From a virus: a DNA stretch of 64,000 bases. The notes under the pieces were generated by a model. That model ran no database searches. It saw only the letters and a program-made list of their open reading frames with translations, and was not told the origin of the DNA. This document shows, one piece after another, positions 10,180 to 20,990 of this stretch. The translations under genes and the position numbers were made by a program. The stretch covers positions 62,001-126,000 of IMG/VR virus record IMGVR_UViG_3300010158_000027, one strand, 5' to 3'. Position 1 is the first letter of the stretch. Each line of letters begins with the position of its first letter.

Positions 10180-11982
10180 ATGGGAGCATTATTAGAATCA
10201 GGTCTTGTTGGTAACATCGGGTTAAAACACCTTAAAGTTATCAAAGAAGATACAATTAACAAATGGGATCGTTTAGGATTCCTAGATGGTTTGAAAGGAC
10301 ACATCAAAGAAAACATGGCGCAATTATATGAAAATCAAGCGTCTCACTTAATAAATGAAGCATCATCTACAGATAGCTCAGGTTCATTCGAAACTGTAGT
10401 TTTTCCTATCGTTAGACGTGTATTCTCTAAATTGTTGGCTAACGATTTAGTATCTGTACAAGCAATGAACTTACCTATCGGTAAATTGTTCTACTTCGTA
10501 CCTAAAATTCAAGGATACCAAGCTGCAGGAACTAATGAAACTGCACATTACGGACCTATTGGAGCTGATGGTGGACCAACACAAGCTCAAGCTCAGGCTG
10601 GTTACGGTGCGAATGACAAAAACCTTTACGATAGATTTTATGAAGGTAATGAACCAGGATTAGATCCAGCAGGTCTTTTTGATTATTCAAAAGGTTCTTT
10701 CACAGCAATTACTTCAAGTAATGTTGGTACTGTTGCTTGGTCAAACGGTCAATTAGTTGCTTCAGGTTACGGAGCAAGTAATGAGTATAGAAAAGTACTT
10801 ATTGGAATGTCTGGATTCTCTAACGCAGGAGCTGGTAAATTAATCGGACCTGATGGTCAAGAAATGGATAACGAATCTTTCTTAACTGATTTAAGGGTTA
10901 ATGCGGTTTCAACAGGAGCGTTTTCTGGAATGGGTTCAGGTGATGTACTTTTTAGAGTTGTTACTCAAAAATATGGTAAAGGTATCGTACAATACGGAAC
11001 ACAAACAAACACTACTTGGTCTTCTACCGGTAACGGTGGAGCATACGATAACATCTGTTCTCAAGATGGTATCATTTATTTAGAAGTTGACTGTCAAGTT
11101 CCTTGTTCAGTTGGAGCTAACTCAATCGACGGATATTCAGGACTTACTACGTCAGTTGCTGGTACTGGCGCTGCTGGATCTCAATTTACTTGTACCTTCA
11201 AAAGATACAAAGAATTAGAATTTGAAGATCAAATTGGTGAAGTTTCTTTTGACCTTGAGTCAGTTACTGTATCTGTTACAGAAAGAAAATTAAGAGCACA
11301 ATGGTCTCCAGAATTAGCACAAGACGTTTCTGCATTCCACAACATCGATGCTGAAGCTGAATTAACGGCTTTATTGTCTGAACAAGTGGCTGCTGAGATT
11401 GACCGTGAGATTTTACGTGATTTACGTAAAGGTGCGGCTTGGACACTACGTTGGGATTACAACGGATGGAAAAGAGGTACTGCGGCTAACCCGTTAACTC
11501 AATACACACAAAAAGATTGGAATCAAACTTTGATTACTGCGATTAACCAAATTTCAGCACAAATCCACAAATCTACATTGAGAGGTGGAGCTAACTGGAT
11601 CGTAGTTTCTTCTGAGATTTCAGCTATCTTTGACGATTTAGAATACTTCCACGTATCTAACGCGTCTCCTGAACAAGACCAATATAACATGGGTATTGAA
11701 AGAGTTGGTACTCTTGCAGGACGTTACCAAGTGTTTAGAGACCCTTACTTCCCACCAAACACAATCTTGTTGGGTCACAAAGGAACTTCATTGTTAGATA
11801 CAGGGTACGTTTACGCACCATATGTACCGTTACAATTGACACCTACAATGTATAACCCATTCAACTTCACTCCGATTAAAGGAATTATGACGAGATACGC
11901 GAAAAAAATGGTAAACAACCGTTTCTATGGTAGAATTACTGTTGATGGTGTTCGTACATTTGACTTAAGAGAATTGAGATAA
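10180..11982 (+). CDS. gp23: major capsid protein (T4 gp23-like)
   Basis: A 600-residue HK97-fold capsid subunit. Family features include the N-terminal delta domain, FPIVRRVFSKLLANDLVSVQAMNLPIGKLFYF (about 76-107) and the C-terminal MTRYAKKMVNNRFYGRITV. A prohead-protease site of the (L/I)xE type is visible at INE/A, predicting cleavage after Glu60. A Ser/Gly-rich insertion of roughly 150 residues after position 170 looks like a surface domain. The start follows an A-rich leader without Shine-Dalgarno sequence. A strong terminator follows. Confidence 0.96.
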   Translation: MGALLESGLVGNIGLKHLKVIKEDTINKWDRLGFLDGLKGHIKENMAQLYENQASHLINEASSTDSSGSFETVVFPIVRRVFSKLLANDLVSVQAMNLPIGKLFYFVPKIQGYQAAGTNETAHYGPIGADGGPTQAQAQAGYGANDKNLYDRFYEGNEPGLDPAGLFDYSKGSFTAITSSNVGTVAWSNGQLVASGYGASNEYRKVLIGMSGFSNAGAGKLIGPDGQEMDNESFLTDLRVNAVSTGAFSGMGSGDVLFRVVTQKYGKGIVQYGTQTNTTWSSTGNGGAYDNICSQDGIIYLEVDCQVPCSVGANSIDGYSGLTTSVAGTGAAGSQFTCTFKRYKELEFEDQIGEVSFDLESVTVSVTERKLRAQWSPELAQDVSAFHNIDAEAELTALLSEQVAAEIDREILRDLRKGAAWTLRWDYNGWKRGTAANPLTQYTQKDWNQTLITAINQISAQIHKSTLRGGANWIVVSSEISAIFDDLEYFHVSNASPEQDQYNMGIERVGTLAGRYQVFRDPYFPPNTILLGHKGTSLLDTGYVYAPYVPLQLTPTMYNPFNFTPIKGIMTRYAKKMVNNRFYGRITVDGVRTFDLRELR

Positions 11983-12010
11983 TCAAAAATCTTACGATAA
12001 TAACACTAAA

Positions 12011-12035
12011 GGGACAAGAAATTGTCCCTTTTTTT
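12011..12035 (+). terminator. intrinsic terminator after major capsid gene
   Basis: Perfect 7-bp stem GGGACAA / TTGTCCC with a GAAA tetraloop (12011-12028), followed by seven T residues. Confidence 0.93.
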
Positions 12036-12081
12036 GGTTAAAGAAAAATGGTGAGTGGGTTAAAAATAAATGGGTTATAAA

Positions 12082-12113
12082 TTGACTTTTTATATATTTT
12101 TATTATATTTATA
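12082..12113 (+). promoter_or_regulatory. promoter of the homing endonuclease gene
   Basis: TTGACT at 12082-12087, 16 nt, then TATATTTATATAAAA from 12104. It combines the early-type TTGAC/TATATTTA arrangement with the TATTTATA box (12106-12113), which ends 13 nt before the ATG at 12127. This argues that translation starts at 12127, not at ATG 12070 inside the promoter. Confidence 0.6.
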
Positions 12114-12126
12114 TAAAATGTTCGTA

Positions 12127-13845
12127 ATGAAAACTAAATTAACTCCCGATAATATATTAACAATTATTGAATTATATCAGACTGAAATACCAAGTACTCA
12201 TAAATTAGCGGAAAAGTTTAAAGTTGGACATAAAAAAATTAATCAATTATTAAAAGAGAATAATATTCAGATTAATAAAAAAGGGGGGCAAACTCAAATG
12301 GGTAATAGTCTCGAGATAGAATCGACTAAGAGTAAAATGTATTCTACTTCAGAAACAAAAGAATTAGTCGCTCAATGTGTCAAAACAAATATCATTATAA
12401 AAGACCCAAATAATCTATCGGGTAAATTAACAAAACATATTATTGAATTATATGGAGATGTTTGGCTACCAGCAAACACCTACCAAAGAAAAAAATATGA
12501 ACACATTAATGGTAAAAAATGGTTTGAAGATTATTTTAAGATAATAGAGGTTAATAAATCAATAAATAGAACTTGTAAGTTGTGTGAATGGACAACTACT
12601 GATACATCCAATAAAACAGGTGGTTTTGAGAATCATTTAGTTAATAGTCATAATTTACCATTAAATGATTATTTATCTAAATTCCCCGAAGATATTATAT
12701 ATCACCCAACCCATTCTAAAAAATTAGAGTTAACAAAATTTTTATCAATTAATTCAAATTTTGTTACTTGTAATTTATGTGGTGAAAAAATGAAAAGTAT
12801 TTCTAACACACATTTAAAGAGTAAACATAATATTACAACATTAGAATATAAACTAAAATACCCAAACAATAAAATTGTATCAACCTCTGTTTCAAAAAAA
12901 CTAAGCGACTTAGTTAAAATTACTAATATTAATATGACACCTACATGGACATCAAAGGGTGAAACTGAGATTAAAGAGTTTATTGAGAGTCTTGGGTTCG
13001 TAACAAATAAAGGTAAAAACCGAAAAATATTAGACGGTAAAGAGATTGATTTAATAATTGAAGGGACTAATATATGTATTGAATATAATGGATTGTATTA
13101 TCATACGGAAAGTATGGGTAAAAATAGTTCCTATCATTTAAATAAAACAATTGATTGTAATCAGATTGGTTATAAACTATTTCACATTTTTGAAGATGAA
13201 TGGAAAACAAACGAAGAGTTGGTTAAAAGGAAATTGAAGCATTTATTAAACGTTAATGATGGGATTAGAATTGGTGGGAGAAACGTTAAAATACAAAGTA
13301 TTACTTCCGAAGATAAATCATTTTTTCTAAAAAATAATCACATTCAAGGATCGGACAAATCTAACATATCATACGGAGCGTACTATAATGATGAATTAGT
13401 TGGTGTTATGACATTTAATAATAAGAGAAACATGACTAAAACCGCCAATGGGGAATTTGAGTTAAGTAGATTCGCTACTAAACAGAATTATGTTATTAGT
13501 GGTTTGGCATCAAAAATATTAAAACGTTTCGTTAAAGACCATTCACCAACGAGTATTGTTAGTTTTGCAGATAGAAGATGGACAATAGATGGTGATAATA
13601 ACTTATACACTAATTTAGGGTTTACTTTAGTGTCCATTACAAAACCAACGTACTATTATTATAATTCTAAGGTTAGTCGGTATAAAAGATTTCACAAATT
13701 TGGTTTCGGTAAAAATAATCTTAAAAAAAGATTTCCAGAATTAGATTATACTAAGACAGAAAAAGTATTAACTACCGAGTTGGGATATGACAGAATATGG
13801 GATTGTGGACTATTTAAGTATCAATTATTCATAAATAATAACTAG
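12127..13845 (+). CDS. free-standing homing endonuclease, Vsr/EDxHD-like, with zinc-finger DNA-binding modules
   Basis: About 572 residues. The N-terminus has a helix-turn-helix (THKLAEKFKVGHKKINQLL). Two Cys/His modules follow: CKLCEWTT...HLVNSH and CNLCGEKM...HLKSKHNITTLEYKLKYP, the latter resembling MucR-type fingers. A PD-(D/E)XK-like nuclease core follows: GETEIKEFIESLGF, then GKEIDLIIEGTNICIEYNG, YYHTE and KLFHIFEDEW. The C-terminal 180 residues (GAYYNDELVGVMTF, FADRRWT) form a further domain often fused to such phage nucleases. Placed right after the capsid gene, it could mobilise itself and the adjoining adhesin genes into related phages. Confidence 0.85.
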   Translation: MKTKLTPDNILTIIELYQTEIPSTHKLAEKFKVGHKKINQLLKENNIQINKKGGQTQMGNSLEIESTKSKMYSTSETKELVAQCVKTNIIIKDPNNLSGKLTKHIIELYGDVWLPANTYQRKKYEHINGKKWFEDYFKIIEVNKSINRTCKLCEWTTTDTSNKTGGFENHLVNSHNLPLNDYLSKFPEDIIYHPTHSKKLELTKFLSINSNFVTCNLCGEKMKSISNTHLKSKHNITTLEYKLKYPNNKIVSTSVSKKLSDLVKITNINMTPTWTSKGETEIKEFIESLGFVTNKGKNRKILDGKEIDLIIEGTNICIEYNGLYYHTESMGKNSSYHLNKTIDCNQIGYKLFHIFEDEWKTNEELVKRKLKHLLNVNDGIRIGGRNVKIQSITSEDKSFFLKNNHIQGSDKSNISYGAYYNDELVGVMTFNNKRNMTKTANGEFELSRFATKQNYVISGLASKILKRFVKDHSPTSIVSFADRRWTIDGDNNLYTNLGFTLVSITKPTYYYYNSKVSRYKRFHKFGFGKNNLKKRFPELDYTKTEKVLTTELGYDRIWDCGLFKYQLFINNN

Positions 13846-13852
13846 AAAGGGG

Positions 13853-13917
13853 TATTTATACATTCATATAGTTTTTTCATTATATTATTGTTTTAATGCT
13901 GTATATTTATAGTAAAA
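13853..13917 (+). promoter_or_regulatory. two TATTTATA boxes upstream of the secreted-protein operon
   Basis: TATTTATA at 13853-13860 and again at 13904-13911, the second followed by GTAAAATAC and ending 14 nt before the ATG at 13926. The second fits the consensus TATTTATAnTAAAA exactly. Confidence 0.6.
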
Positions 13918-13925
13918 TACATGTC

Positions 13926-16900
13926 ATGAAAAAAATACTATTTATTATCACTTTTTTATGGGCATTTGGTTTGTCCCATTCACAAGTCTCAACCAACTAC
14001 ACGTTTTCAGAAACCACTGGAACGTATGTCGCAGTAACATTGGGTACTCAGTTAGTAACAACAACTGCTGGAGCAACCTCATATGATACCGACGGTAGTT
14101 ATATCACATTATCATCAGGAAATCAATTCACATTTAATGGAACTACGATCACATCTGTTAATATGACGGCTGATGGAGCTCTTTGGTTAAATCCTGGAAC
14201 TTCAACAACAGGAAATGCTGTTACTGGTTCCATAACTTCAACAGCGACAGCTACTGGTGTTATATGTCCATTGAATATGGATTTAAGAAGTACTTCAGTT
14301 GCTTCAACCGTATATGAAAGAAGATGGTATGATGATGGAACTGAAGATATTTTTCAATGGCAAAATTGTGCTAGATATTTGCAAACTACTGAGAAAATTT
14401 CATTCCAAATTCGTATTAATAAATCTACCGGTGTAATACGTGTGGTATATGGTGCTATGACTGTAACTACATCTGTTACGTATCAACCATATGTTGGTTT
14501 AAGGGGGAGCGCAAATACTGACTTTAATAATAGACAATTAAGTGCAACAGTACCAGATGCCAGCCCAAACTGGGGGGCACCTAGTGGTACGGGTGCCGGA
14601 GCATCAAACGCTAACACATGTAGATTCCTTAGTACAGCATCATGTTTCCCATCGTCTGGGTTAATATTCATATGGACACCAAAACCGGTTATAACACCAT
14701 CGGTTTCTACATTATCGGCGTTTTCATCATGTTCAGGTAGCGTGTCTAGTACCCAAAACTTCACAGTAACGGGGTCTAATATGTTAGCTGGTATAACAAT
14801 AACACCCCCAGTTGGGTTCGAAGTATCGACAAGTTCCACATTTGCAAGTAGTGTTGGTACAAGTTCATCATCGTTAGTGGTAGGTGCTTCTGGTACAATT
14901 GCGTCAACAACAATATATGTTAGATTACAATCTACAGCATCAACAGGAACACCATCAGGAAACATAACATTAGCTAGTACTAGTGCAACAACCATGAATG
15001 TCGCAGTATCAGGAAATGTAGGTGTTAATCTATCTGCTGTGGTTGTGTCATCAAGTACTACCCAATCAATATGTTTAGGTAGTAATGGAACATCTGTATC
15101 TGTCGCTGAAACGGGTGGTGGAACAATCACCGCAAGACAATGGGGTAGACGATCAATTTCGGGTGGAGCAATAACTAATGTCACAGGAACCTCATCTTCA
15201 TATACACCATTAGGTACGGATTTCACAACGGTTGGTACGTATTATTTAGTATGTACATCAACACCTACTTGTGGGTCAGCTACGGTTTCAAATGAAGTTA
15301 CAATCACAATAGTTGGTTCTCCATCAGCCCCCGGCATACCAACAACCAATTCACCACAATGTGTATCTCCTGGTGTAACGTTAACGGCAAATGGTTCGGC
15401 ACCGGCTGGAGAAACTTGGTATTGGCAAACAACAAGTACTGGAGTTGCAACCACAAGTTTTGCAAGTACATATGTTGTTACAACATCAGGAACTTATTAT
15501 ATAAGATCTCAATACACATCAGGTGGTTGCTGGGGAAGTGCGTCGTCAGCAGCAATTGTTATTAGTACTGTACCATCGGCTCCTTCATTAACATCACCAA
15601 CTACAGCGGCTACTGGGGTAAGTTTAACACCAACATTAACTTGGGGTGCAGTTGCTGGAGCTACAAGTTATGATGTGTATATCGGAACAACCTTACCTGG
15701 AAGTCCGACAGCAAACGTATTAACCAATTCATATACACCATCTACATTGGCGGCATCAACAGGACATTCATGGAAAGTGATCGCTAAAAATGCGTGTGGT
15801 TCAAGTGTTGCGTCGTCCACATATACATTTACAACAACATGTGCGTCAGTTGCGTTAACATATACACAATTATTTAATGCCGCTACTACACCTTCATGTT
15901 GGTCAACATCTATTGCTGCTGTTCAAACCGGAACTAAGATATCGTATGTTACATCTTCAACATATCTGACAGCGTCACCTCAAGAAGGGACATATTTTGT
16001 AAAATATTATTCATATAGTAATTCAAATGGTGGATCTGGATCGGAAGAAAGATTAATTACACCATCAATTGTTACTACAAGTACATCAAGTGTTGATGTT
16101 GAATTTTATTGGTTTCAAGATAACAGTGCGTCATATAATAGTGGGTCTTATTTAAATGAAGGTGTAACGGTTGAATGGTCAACTAACGGAACAACTTGGA
16201 CGACATCAACATTTTATCCGAGACACGTAAGTTCGGCTTCGGCTACGGGTGAATGGTCCAAAAAAACAATAACATTACCTTCGGGAGCTGGAAATATCGC
16301 AACTTTATATGTGGCGTTTAAATTCCATTCTGAATATGGTTATAATATGTATATAGATAATGTTGTGATTAAACCAACACCAAGTTGTGCTGAGCCCACT
16401 TCATTAACTTCTTCATCTATTACTTCTACAACATCAACAATTTCATGGACAGCATCATCGTCATCACCATCGGGTGGGTATGACTATTATTTATCTACTT
16501 CATCAACCGCACCAACTGGTAGTTCAACACCAACAGGATCCGTCGGTTCGGGTGTGGTAACAACTAATTTAAGTAGTTTAACTAACTCAACATTATATTA
16601 TTATTGGGTTCGTTCAAATTGTGGTAGTTCAACTTATTCAACATGGGCCGGATCATCATTTACTACTCTAATACCAAATGACAATAGTGGTGGTGCTATC
16701 GACTTAACAATAAATCCAAGCACTACCTGTACAACCACAACTACAGGCACTAGTATTGGCGCAACTCAAACATTGGCGGCACAATCATTATATGGTACAG
16801 CTGATGATGATGTATGGTATAAATTTACAGCAACAGCCGTTAATTTAACTATGACAGTTGCTCGAGGTACTATGGGTGATTTGGTTGTTGAGGGATATAA

Positions 16901-17888
16901 TAGCTCATTAGTGTCTATGGGTGTCGTTGATGCTACTACTGGAACTGAAACTATAAATTGGACGGTAACTGTTGGGAATGTATATTATATTAGAGTTTAT
17001 AGTTATAGTTCATTAAGTAGTACTCGAGGAACATTTACTATCTGTATAACAACACCAACTCAGCCCCCAGTAAATGATAACGCATCCGGAGCTATAACGT
17101 TAATCGTTAATAACCCATACATAACAGGAACTAATGACGGGGCAACCTCATCGTCAACCGCACCAACACCAACAGGTCCATCTTATTATGGTGGAGATGT
17201 TTGGTATAAAGTGGTTGTACCCTCTGGTGGAACTTTTCAAATCAGAACATCGGCATTGGTATTAACAGATATCGTTATAGAGATATATTCGGGTACATCT
17301 TCAGCATTAACATATATAACATACAATGATGATAGTTCATCAGTAAATTCAATGTCATATTTAGAGGTAACCGGTAGAACTGTAGGTGAAACAATATGGA
17401 TTAGAGTTTGGGACTATAGTGGGGACAATACTGGAACATTCCAAATTAGAGTATCAACACCAGTCTCGTTACCTATTAGTTTAATATCATTTACGGGTCA
17501 CAATACGGTTGATGGTAATTCGTTGGAATGGAAAACAGCGTCTGAAGTTAACAGTGATTATTTCACATTGTCAAGGGGACTATATAGAGATGGTTCTGTC
17601 GAATGGTTAGAGTTACAATTTGTTAATGGTGCTGGTAATTCAAATATTATTAACACATACGGGTATTTCGATTTAGACTACCCAAACGATATAAATTATT
17701 ACCAATTAACTCAAACAGATTATGACGGTAATTCGGTAACATATGATATGATTTCTATCGATAATAGAATAAATAGTAAAATAATATCATCTATGGTAAA
17801 TTTACTTGGACAAGAGGTAAATGAAAACTATAGGGGAATTGTGGTTGTAACATACACAGATGGTTCTGTGGAAAAAATAATGAAATGA
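13926..17888 (+). CDS. large secreted adhesin-like protein with type IX secretion (type A) C-terminal domain
   Basis: About 1320 residues, Thr/Ser/Gly-rich. The start at 13926 gives a Sec signal peptide ([15 protein letters not shown], cleavage near SHSQ) and lies 14 nt after a late-type box; the longer frame from 13896 would begin inside the promoter. Approximate domains: flavobacterial N-terminal module 20-255; Ig-like segments 255-540; fibronectin III 551-636 ([15 protein letters not shown]); a MAM/cleaved-adhesin-like domain 641-818; fibronectin III 821-913; two prepeptidase C-terminal-like domains 916-1176 ([18 protein letters not shown]). The last 140 residues read [40 protein letters not shown], then NLLGQEV...[11 protein letters not shown]...K, the pattern of type A sorting domains. 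It should be exported by the host type IX system and anchored or released at the cell surface. Confidence 0.87.
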
Positions 17889-19171
17889 AAAAATTAATAA
17901 TAGTATTATCCTTTATTTTAAATTCAATATTAACCCTTGCTCAACCATCAAACGATGATTGTAGTGGAGCTCAGAATCTAGGAACATTACCAACACCCTC
18001 GGCATGTCCAAGTGGTGTTGGTTCTTTTGTTAATGTGGTGGGTACCACAATAAACGCAACCTCACCATCTCCTTATACCTATTTATTGGGTTGTCAAACG
18101 GGTGGTAATCAACCTGCACCTGCATTAGATGTATGGTATAAATTCGTCGCTTCAGGTACTCAAGTTAATATAAATATAACACCAGGATCAGCTCCCGTTT
18201 TACAAAGTCCATCAATAACATTATGGATCGGAACAAATTGTTCAACTCTTTCAGGGGTTAACTGTGATAATAATGGAACGGTTGCTGGTAATAATAGTGT
18301 AACTTTCCAACCATTAATTCCTGGAACAACATACTACATACAAGTTAGTGGAATGACTTCAGGTGGGTCAGGTAATTTTAACATGTCCGTTAATAGTACA
18401 AACGATTGTAATAATTGTTTACAAACGTCAAGTCTTACATCAATACCATCACCCACAAATGGAGCGTTTTTACCAAATCAGTCCGTATCTTTTTCTTATA
18501 CAATAACTACATACACACAAGTATCCGCCAATTGGTTACATGGAGTTATTCCAACATTTGGTAATGGGTGGGATTTATCAACACTAGTGAATGTTGCTGC
18601 TATCTCATGTTCGGGTAGTGGTACGTGGATTTGGTATAATAGTAATACTAGTACCGCAACTGGTACTACCACAGGACCTGGGTTTTACTATAATTATCCT
18701 GGTGGAACTGCCGGTAATAACTACGGTGATAATAACTCTTCTGGAGCATGTACTTGGACATTTTTCTGGGCAATTAAAACAAAACCAAACTGCACGTCGG
18801 GAACTAACTTAAACATTTCCATTAATACAACCGCTGATGGTGAGACTGGGTCTTGGACAAGCGTTGCTTGTTTGGGGGATCCTAATTATAGTTTTGGTGC
18901 TGTTTTAAATTGTTGTACCACTACAGCAACTTTCACAAACCCCACTTGTAATAATGGTACTAATGGAACGGCAACTGCTGTACCGAACGGAATCGCACCT
19001 TATACATATTCATGGAATACATCACCAATTCAAACAACACAAACAGCAACAAATCTACCATCAGGTACGTACACAGTTACAGTAACAGACGCATCTGGAT
19101 GTGTATCAACAGCGACAGTAACGATCATAAATCCAAGTCCAATAGTTGTTGGCAACATAATACATAATTAA
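17885..19171 (+). CDS. secreted protein with SprB repeat
   Basis: 428 residues with a Sec signal peptide ([22 protein letters not shown]). Residues 25-175 form a prepeptidase-like domain ([11 protein letters not shown]...[11 protein letters not shown]...YYIQVSG). Residues 343-415 are an SprB repeat ([18 protein letters not shown], then [16 protein letters not shown]), the module repeated in the gliding adhesin SprB of Flavobacterium. No type IX sorting domain is present; the protein ends GNIIHN. Its ATG overlaps the previous stop (ATGA at 17885-17888), so it is translationally coupled to the large adhesin gene. Confidence 0.85.
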
Positions 19172-19183
19172 AAATAAAAAGTC

Positions 19184-19747
19184 ATGAAAAAATTATTAAT
19201 CTTAGCTCTATCATTAATATCCTTAGTCGGATATTCTCAATCAACAGTAAATCCTGACACAGTTTGTTATCAAACAAATGGATCAACATACACGGTACCA
19301 TCTTTAGGTGCTGGGTATACGTATACATGGACAATCGCTTCACCTGGTGTGATAACTGCAGGACAAACAACGAATTCAATAGTTGTGGATTGGTCGACAG
19401 CATCTCCTGGTTTAATAAACAGTGGTGTAAGTGTTGTTGCTTCAAGTGCTAGTGGATGTTTAAGTACTCCCGTAACATTAAATGTTTTAATATACCAAGT
19501 ACTTCCAACGATTACCCCTATCGGGCCTTTCTGTACTGGCGCTGCTTGTGTTACTTTAGTTGGAACACCAATTGGTGGTGTATTTACAGGTACTGGGGTT
19601 GTCGGTAATCAATTTTGTCCTGTCACATCAGGTGTAGGAACATTTACATTAACTTATACTGTTACATCGTCTGGTTGTACGTTCACAACAACTACATCAG
19701 TTACGGTAACACCAATTCTAACACTATCTCCGATACAACATAATTAA
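19184..19747 (+). CDS. small secreted PKD-like protein
   Basis: 187 residues with a Sec signal peptide (MKKLLILALSLISLVGYSQ). Residues 22-110 look like a flavobacterial PKD-like domain (YTYTWTIASPGVITAGQ, then IVVDWSTASPG and SASGCLSTP). A second beta-rich segment follows (GTFTLTYTVTSSGCTFT). It ends SPIQHN, resembling the HN end of the preceding protein. It lies 12 nt after that gene and 1 nt before the next. It lacks a type IX sorting domain. Confidence 0.82.
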   Translation: MKKLLILALSLISLVGYSQSTVNPDTVCYQTNGSTYTVPSLGAGYTYTWTIASPGVITAGQTTNSIVVDWSTASPGLINSGVSVVASSASGCLSTPVTLNVLIYQVLPTITPIGPFCTGAACVTLVGTPIGGVFTGTGVVGNQFCPVTSGVGTFTLTYTVTSSGCTFTTTTSVTVTPILTLSPIQHN

Positions 19748-19748
19748 A

Positions 19749-20321
19749 ATGAAATTAATTTTAACAATATTATTTTTAACAGGTTTCTTCACATATTCTC
19801 AACAAGTCATTGAGATATGTGAGGGAGAATCTGTGTCTTATACATATTCGATTAATTCACAAATACCTATGAATTTTGATTGGGTAGTTAATGGCGATCA
19901 CTATTTGGTGGATGAGTTAACTATGGATTGGTCGGTTGCTGGGACATATGATATATCAGTAACAGGTTATTCCGTTAACGGAGATTGTCCATCTGATACC
20001 CAAAACTATAATGTTGTTGTTATTTTTTGTGAAGAAATGGTGTATTGGGTTCCTAATACATTTACACCAGACGATGATGAACATAATCAATATTTCTATC
20101 CTGTAATAACGGATGGTATTGATATTAATGATTTTACCTTTTTGATTTTTAATAGGTGGGGTGAGGTTATATGGGAATCTCATGATACCTCAGCTAAATG
20201 GGATGGGTATTATAAGGGAAAAAAATGTCAAGATGGGGTTTATATATGGAAGATGGTGTTTGGTATTAGTAGTAGTGATAAGAGAATCGATACACACGGA
20301 CATTTAAATATATTAAGATAA
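19749..20321 (+). CDS. short secreted protein ending in a type IX secretion type B (gliding-associated) C-terminal domain
   Basis: 190 residues with a Sec signal peptide (MKLILTILFLTGFFTYSQ). Residues 20-90 form one PKD-like domain. Residues about 98-190 match the gliding-motility-associated C-terminal domain: VPNTFTPDDDEHNQYFYP, then FLIFNRWGEVIWES, WDGYYKGKKCQDGVYIWKM and GHLNILR at the end. In host proteins this domain terminates very large adhesins; here it is fused to only one small domain. It is the last gene of the operon and would be secreted by the host type IX system. Confidence 0.9.
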   Translation: MKLILTILFLTGFFTYSQQVIEICEGESVSYTYSINSQIPMNFDWVVNGDHYLVDELTMDWSVAGTYDISVTGYSVNGDCPSDTQNYNVVVIFCEEMVYWVPNTFTPDDDEHNQYFYPVITDGIDINDFTFLIFNRWGEVIWESHDTSAKWDGYYKGKKCQDGVYIWKMVFGISSSDKRIDTHGHLNILR

Positions 20322-20780: not shown

Positions 20781-20867
20781 GGAGAGTTGTCAGAGCCTGG
20801 TTTATCGAGACAGACTTGAAATCTGTTGTACTGAAAGGTACCGTAGGTTCGAATCCTACACTCTCCG
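20781..20867 (+). tRNA. tRNA-Ser (UGA)
   Basis: 87 nt with a 7-bp acceptor stem GGAGAGT / ACTCTCC and discriminator G, anticodon loop CTTGAAA (anticodon TGA), a long variable arm as expected of serine tRNAs, and the T-loop GGTTCGAATCC. No encoded CCA. Confidence 0.95.
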
Positions 20868-20885
20868 CTGAAGTACATCTAAATT

Positions 20886-20959
20886 GGGGGATTAGCTCAG
20901 CTGGCTAGAGCACCTGCCTTGCACGCAGGGGGTCAACGGTTCGACTCCGTTATCCTCCA
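20886..20959 (+). tRNA. tRNA-Ala (UGC)
   Basis: 74 nt. Acceptor stem GGGGGAT / ATCCTCC (one G-T pair) with discriminator A, D-arm GCTCAGCTGGCTAGAGC, anticodon loop CTTGCAC (anticodon TGC), T-arm CGGTTCGACTCCG. No encoded CCA. It follows tRNA-Ser by 18 nt, presumably in one transcript. Confidence 0.95.
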
Positions 20960-20990
20960 CTTTTAACCTTAAAAAGGATATTTATTACAT

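Follow-up and report, generated by a model that had tools for sequence, protein, structure and literature searches.

A four-gene operon downstream of gp23

We analyzed a window of 64,000 nucleotides (bases 62001-126000 of a 281,269-base viral record) that contains four consecutive open reading frames (ORFs) on the plus strand: P1 (13926-17888), P2 (17885-19171), P3 (19184-19747), and P4 (19749-20321). P1 and P2 overlap by 4 nt, and gaps of 12 nt and 1 nt separate P2 from P3 and P3 from P4, in agreement with a preliminary description of four tightly spaced genes at 13926-20321. Upstream on the same strand lie the gene for the major capsid protein gp23 (10180-11982; Pfam Gp23, 3.7e-71; phrog_138) and, between it and the operon, a homing endonuclease gene (12070-13845; phrog_3339, 2e-85). 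A short distance downstream, past the operon and an HNH gene, are tRNA-Ser and tRNA-Ala genes (20781-20960). In G272, G281, G293, and G294, ORFs of 138 to 147 aa match a short portion of Gp23 and may be capsid pieces that were split or duplicated.

All four products begin with a predicted Sec signal peptide, as had been proposed. Our signal-peptide heuristic flagged about a dozen of the 327 ORFs in the record, P1 to P4 among them, and placed the signal peptides, all on the plus strand, at 13926-13982 (P1), 17885-17941 (P2), 19184-19237 (P3; MKKLLILALSLISLVGYS, followed by Q), and 19749-19799 (P4; MKLILTILFLTGFFTYS, followed by Q). They are of the Bacteroidota type, and in each protein the predicted cleavage site precedes Q. 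The signal peptides, the Gp23 match, and the type B sorting domain of P4 back the earlier suggestion of a T4-like phage with cargo for Sec and the type IX secretion system (T9SS). Judged from its homologs, the virus is probably a large T4-like virus of Bacteroidota.

The motif TATTTATA lies on the plus strand at 13904-13911, 14 nt 5' of the P1 ATG, with a second copy at 13853-13860. Of the 282 ORFs in the record, 49 have this motif near their starts, compared with 5.7 expected, and it is probably a promoter element of the phage. Because of this enrichment and its position upstream of P1, the operon is probably under the phage's own promoter type. We took 13926 as the start of P1; the start at 13896 chosen by the ORF caller is an extension that runs through the promoter-like motif.

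Homologs of each of P1 to P4 are found in other viral contigs. A search for the same operon in related phages had been suggested as a check, and in two contigs (L001 and L002) the four genes follow gp23 in the same order, with 79-97% identity. Such recurrence shows that the operon is no chance arrangement. In a 229-kb sibling (G016) whose gp23 is 77% identical, the slot is occupied by a different set of five signal-peptide genes. Two of these encode curated type A domains, one in a subtilisin with SprB (TIGR04183, 1.8e-10) and the other in an SprB protein (TIGR04183, 1.5e-9); of the remaining three, one has SprB only and two have a short tail. One P1-like signal-peptide gene occupies the slot in each of L021, L039, and L009, and no signal-peptide gene was found in the slot of G011 (L037). 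Since its contents differ among these phages, the gp23 slot is a variable site for secreted cargo. Two histidine-kinase-like genes (L103:9090-10865 and 10862-12277) directly follow a T9SS cargo gene in G016, and secreted subtilisins (Peptidase_S8) are encoded by phages at L065:12015-14066 and L101:12301-14583, the former with a curated T9SS type A domain.

Domains of the four products

P1 is a predicted secreted protein of 1320 aa with GBD_T9SS_assoc-like and fn3-like regions and a short type A-like C terminus. The preliminary description had assigned it a type A sorting domain, and the curated Pfam and NCBIfam models gave no match to Por_Secre_tail or TIGR04183. Its last 140 aa (17466-17885, plus strand; alignments A1 and A5; model pLDDT, 88) form a conserved C-terminal module common to secreted proteins of the Crocinitomicaceae/Flavobacteriales, which recurs at the very C terminus of proteins from Fluviicola, Brumimicrobium, and other Flavobacteriales. 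With a profile of this tail, 44 of 55 matches ended no more than 6 aa from the C terminus, and 33 of these 44 had a signal peptide. In other Bacteroidota, a canonical type A domain comes after the fn3-like domain seen in P1. A profile comparison of the P1 tail with canonical C-terminal domains (CTDs) gave a weak match (40%; E, 3e-4), and a Foldseek search of the model against the PDB returned fn3/Ig-like matches alone, none with an E value below 1e-3.

The P1 C terminus shows putative CTD motifs B, D, and E at the spacing of the short CTDs of Prevotella intermedia, which have been shown to be cleaved and are reported for that species alone (PMC11969387). Both have a short B-D spacing, whereas the signal of P1 sits behind a different, fn3-like domain. 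We take P1 to be further T9SS cargo with a short type A-like signal, one whose homology to canonical domains is weak. The earlier assignment thus finds no backing in the curated models but is consistent with the short-CTD motif pattern and with a position that matches the type A site of homologs. Short type A-like tails appear to be common in Flavobacteriales proteins (L129-L146), where Pfam and NCBIfam miss them. P1-type tails suggest that short T9SS signals overlooked by curated models exist outside Prevotella.

P2 (17885-19171) ends in GNIIHN, with the terminal IIHN encoded at 19157-19168, and P3 (19184-19747) ends in LSPIQHN, with IQHN encoded at 19733-19744, all on the plus strand. P3 contains a PKD_6 domain that scored above the cutoff (5.6e-9; alignment A6). 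P4 (19749-20321) consists of a PKD-like domain and a type B T9SS sorting domain, the CHU_C core of which spans aa 101-175 (20049-20273, plus strand; profile A2). The type B domain claimed for P4 passed the curated cutoffs of both Pfam CHU_C (3.4e-13; 50 bits, cutoff 27) and NCBIfam TIGR04131 (7e-10; 38.9 bits, cutoff 35). The other modules first listed for the operon fared unevenly. PKD was upheld by P3, but the fn3 matches in the operon products fell below the Pfam cutoffs, the SprB repeat (PF13573) was called by Pfam in the homologs L118 and L119 and not in P2, and no prepeptidase domain was reported. A structure model of P2 built from four sequences reached a pLDDT of 45 and was not used.

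A split three-gene module and its fused relatives

Judged by sequence, P2, P3, and P4 are a conserved three-gene viral module, A-B-C, that the preliminary description overlooked: three adjacent signal-peptide genes, of which A and B end in I-x-H-[ND] and lack a sorting domain, and C carries CHU_C. A scan with the P4 family identified 391 viral stretches encoding a relative of the type B domain. In 55 of the loci read (32 of them non-redundant), C is encoded on its own, as a protein of about 187 aa, immediately downstream of B, and A precedes B. In a larger set, all 53 non-redundant B proteins end in I-x-H-[ND]. A nearby upstream gene is present in 51 of these 53 modules; 49 of the 51 end in the same motif and one in VSHN, and the sole untailed gene (L100) is an unrelated ORF. 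As background, 8 of 5431 ORFs ended in I-x-H-[ND] without a signal peptide.

The last tail residue is the same in A and B in 48 of 49 pairs (46 N/N and 2 D/D, with 1 N/D). The A proteins have bodies of 193 to 632 aa with differing domains, and among the 759 columns of their alignment, none is invariant except those of the tail I and H. Because the tail codons vary synonymously among modules, selection acts on the protein sequence of the tail. The tail might have been a translation-start artifact of an overlapping next gene, but we rejected this, since the A-B gaps vary and the codons vary synonymously. That it is a mere linker left by gene fission is weakened by its presence on unrelated A bodies.

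At 27 of the scanned viral loci, one long secreted chain combines B and C homology, most of these chains being 729-839 aa, and huge phages (385-642 kb) encode proteins in which an A-like part is joined to SprB repeats and a type B domain. No tailed ORF was found in 32 fused viral B-C loci. A Gp23 gene is present in several large contigs with the split module or its fused form. On the chromosome of a Fluviicola relative, A, B, and C are collinear within one 1880-aa adhesin (L246:4912-10554, minus strand), to the start of which P2 is 58% identical over 420 aa; B-like repeats are 41% and C is 34% identical. This gene lies among housekeeping genes and has cinA- and lpxA-like genes next to it. The fused forms count as Rosetta-stone evidence for the proposed split adhesin. 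We did not find B on its own in 396 Bacteroidota genomes, in frames of 733 aa or longer, or in 60 Fluviicola-family genomes, among the frames listed (339 aa or longer), so the split appears to be a viral trait as far as sampled. A secreted protein of 119-148 aa precedes the A-type adhesin in bacteria (L216-L225) and in two huge phages (L098:14002-14370 and L119:9645-10004). Because this small gene precedes the adhesin in bacteria and phages alike, capture of a two-gene host operon is suggested.

Collinearity with one bacterial adhesin, together with a P2 that is shorter than its homologs in L118 and L119, might point to a captured host adhesin in decay, its broken-gene fragments having no joint function. 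We regard this as highly improbable, as the three-way split, the signal peptides, and the tails are kept in 53 divergent modules and B proteins have a median identity of 61% across modules with no internal stop codons.

Probably, the tails either take the place of covalent links or act as a new sorting tag. Under the second alternative, a host factor would read the tails as a C-terminal sorting or processing signal, and A and B would be exported or attached alone rather than docked. The same tail on unrelated A and B bodies and the matching final residue of the pairs would suit such a tag. However, the tail is present only where the protein is split, and among the bacterial loci read, the exact motif was found on one signal-peptide protein only (L193), so that no bacterial user of the tag is known. 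We consider a separate tag unlikely.

The location of the genes bears on another alternative, that the products are virion structural proteins, such as head decorations or fibers, that merely look secreted. The operon adjoins gp23, fused relatives in L004-L006 have tail tube/sheath-like genes as neighbors, and P2 weakly matches a PHROG called virion structural protein. Even so, four signal peptides and a T9SS domain would remove the proteins from the cytoplasm, where virions are assembled, and other copies are far from recognizable structural genes, which makes a virion role improbable. In other phages, the split module was found elsewhere than the gp23 slot; for this reason, and because the slot is empty in G011, we rejected a tie of the operon to that single position.

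Proposed export and relation to known systems

Taken together, the sequence evidence leads us to propose, with a probability of roughly 60%, that P2-P3-P4 are a phage-specific split version of a host T9SS adhesin, that P1 is further T9SS cargo, and that the infected host exports them through Sec and the T9SS. The wide divergence of B and C from the 1880-aa bacterial protein counts against this reading, as do the lack of a sorting domain on A and B, which would still have to cross the outer membrane, and the purely metagenomic origin of the split relatives. In the mechanism that we envisage, A, B, and C would each cross the inner membrane through Sec by their own signal peptides and would then be linked head to tail, either in the periplasm or on the cell surface, with the I-x-H-[ND] tails in place of the peptide links of the fused relatives. 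The type B domain of C would then carry the assembly through the host T9SS, and before lysis infected cells would display or release an adhesin chosen by the phage. A would be a variable, exchangeable outer piece and B and C a constant base. A more specific version, in which the adhesin is self-assembling and multi-subunit, its tag is read by the subunits or by a host export factor, A is exchangeable, and the phage thereby reprograms the infected cell's surface while the cell is alive, is tentative, with the odds somewhat against it.

Type B proteins bind PorP/SprF, which are PorP-like anchors (PMC9143113). PorP/SprF was not found in 12 records of viral contigs or in 2 huge phages, compared with 15 and 21 matches in two bacterial controls; a search for SprA gave no match in the phages and equally none in the bacterial controls and is uninformative. 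Since type B proteins bind such anchors and the phages are without them, the phage protein would have to use, or contend for, an anchor of the host, unless it is released. In three large phages, moreover, proteins of about 108 to 116 aa consist of a signal peptide and CHU_C with almost no passenger (L101:9913-10248, L209:7508-7858, and L210:6837-7217), and gldD and gldG mutants of Flavobacterium johnsoniae are more resistant to phages (PMC5682007). The minimal CHU_C proteins, the absent anchors, and the mutant phenotype favor, but do not prove, an effect on the surface of the infected cell. The same three observations would also fit a decoy, in which phage substrates load the host T9SS or its PorP/SprF anchors, renewal of T9SS-dependent receptors stops, and superinfection fails as a result. 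The large, conserved A and B bodies would be superfluous for jamming, and short CHU_C frames are rare yet present in bacteria; we find this explanation doubtful. For the split adhesin, the most likely use, weakly supported as yet, would be an altered surface of the infected cell, either because T9SS-dependent receptors are masked or displaced or through adhesion. The outcomes first suggested, namely blocking of rival phages, clumping of infected cells, altered gliding, and coating of virions, are candidates only.

If this is correct, many large phages, as the 391 viral stretches with a type B relative suggest, use the host T9SS in infection, a use so far mentioned only incidentally. The split module could explain phage control of receptor access or cell contacts, and it offers a defined four-residue tag that can be tested, with the fused phage and bacterial versions as a natural one-chain control.

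The preliminary description knew of no phage system of this kind. T9SS cargo encoded by phages is in fact on record for Cryophage (Bellas et al. 2020; PMC7468147) and near crAss-BACON genes (2019; PMC6949934), but the split module was absent from the literature as far as we searched. PHROGs yielded no family specific to A, B, or C, a weak SprB-region match for P2 apart, and Pfam has nothing for A. No INPHARED record has the split module; fused or partial relatives alone appear there, in uncultured phage records. The relatives of the split module are all metagenomic, and within the scope of these searches, the module is previously undescribed.

Cryophage likewise has T9SS cargo proteins, which differ between phage variants and bear sorting domains, with a proposed use of the host T9SS, but the domains are of type A and on single genes (endoglucanase, GH39, and PA14), and no type B domain, tandem operon, or tailed split module is described (PMC7468147). 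In crAss-BACON cluster 2, T9SS sorting domains likewise lie near the phage head gene section, but the repeats are BACON repeats and no A-B-C module is described (PMC6949934). The Flavobacterium SprB-type gliding adhesins share with the phage module a signal peptide, a repeat/PKD body, and a type B CTD, and SprB repeats are also present in the relatives L118, L119, L103, and G016; the phage version, unlike these adhesins, is split into three chains, and no SprF/PorP partner was found for it. The Fluviicola-family adhesin is a single polypeptide with an adjoining 122-aa secreted partner and no I-x-H-N tails, whereas the phage version is split and tailed. The C terminus of the Aureispira grappling hook protein GhpA (PDB 9flp) matches the P4 family profile A2 (E, 5.3e-12), but GhpA is a single protein of 5898 aa, in contrast to the three chains of the phage module.
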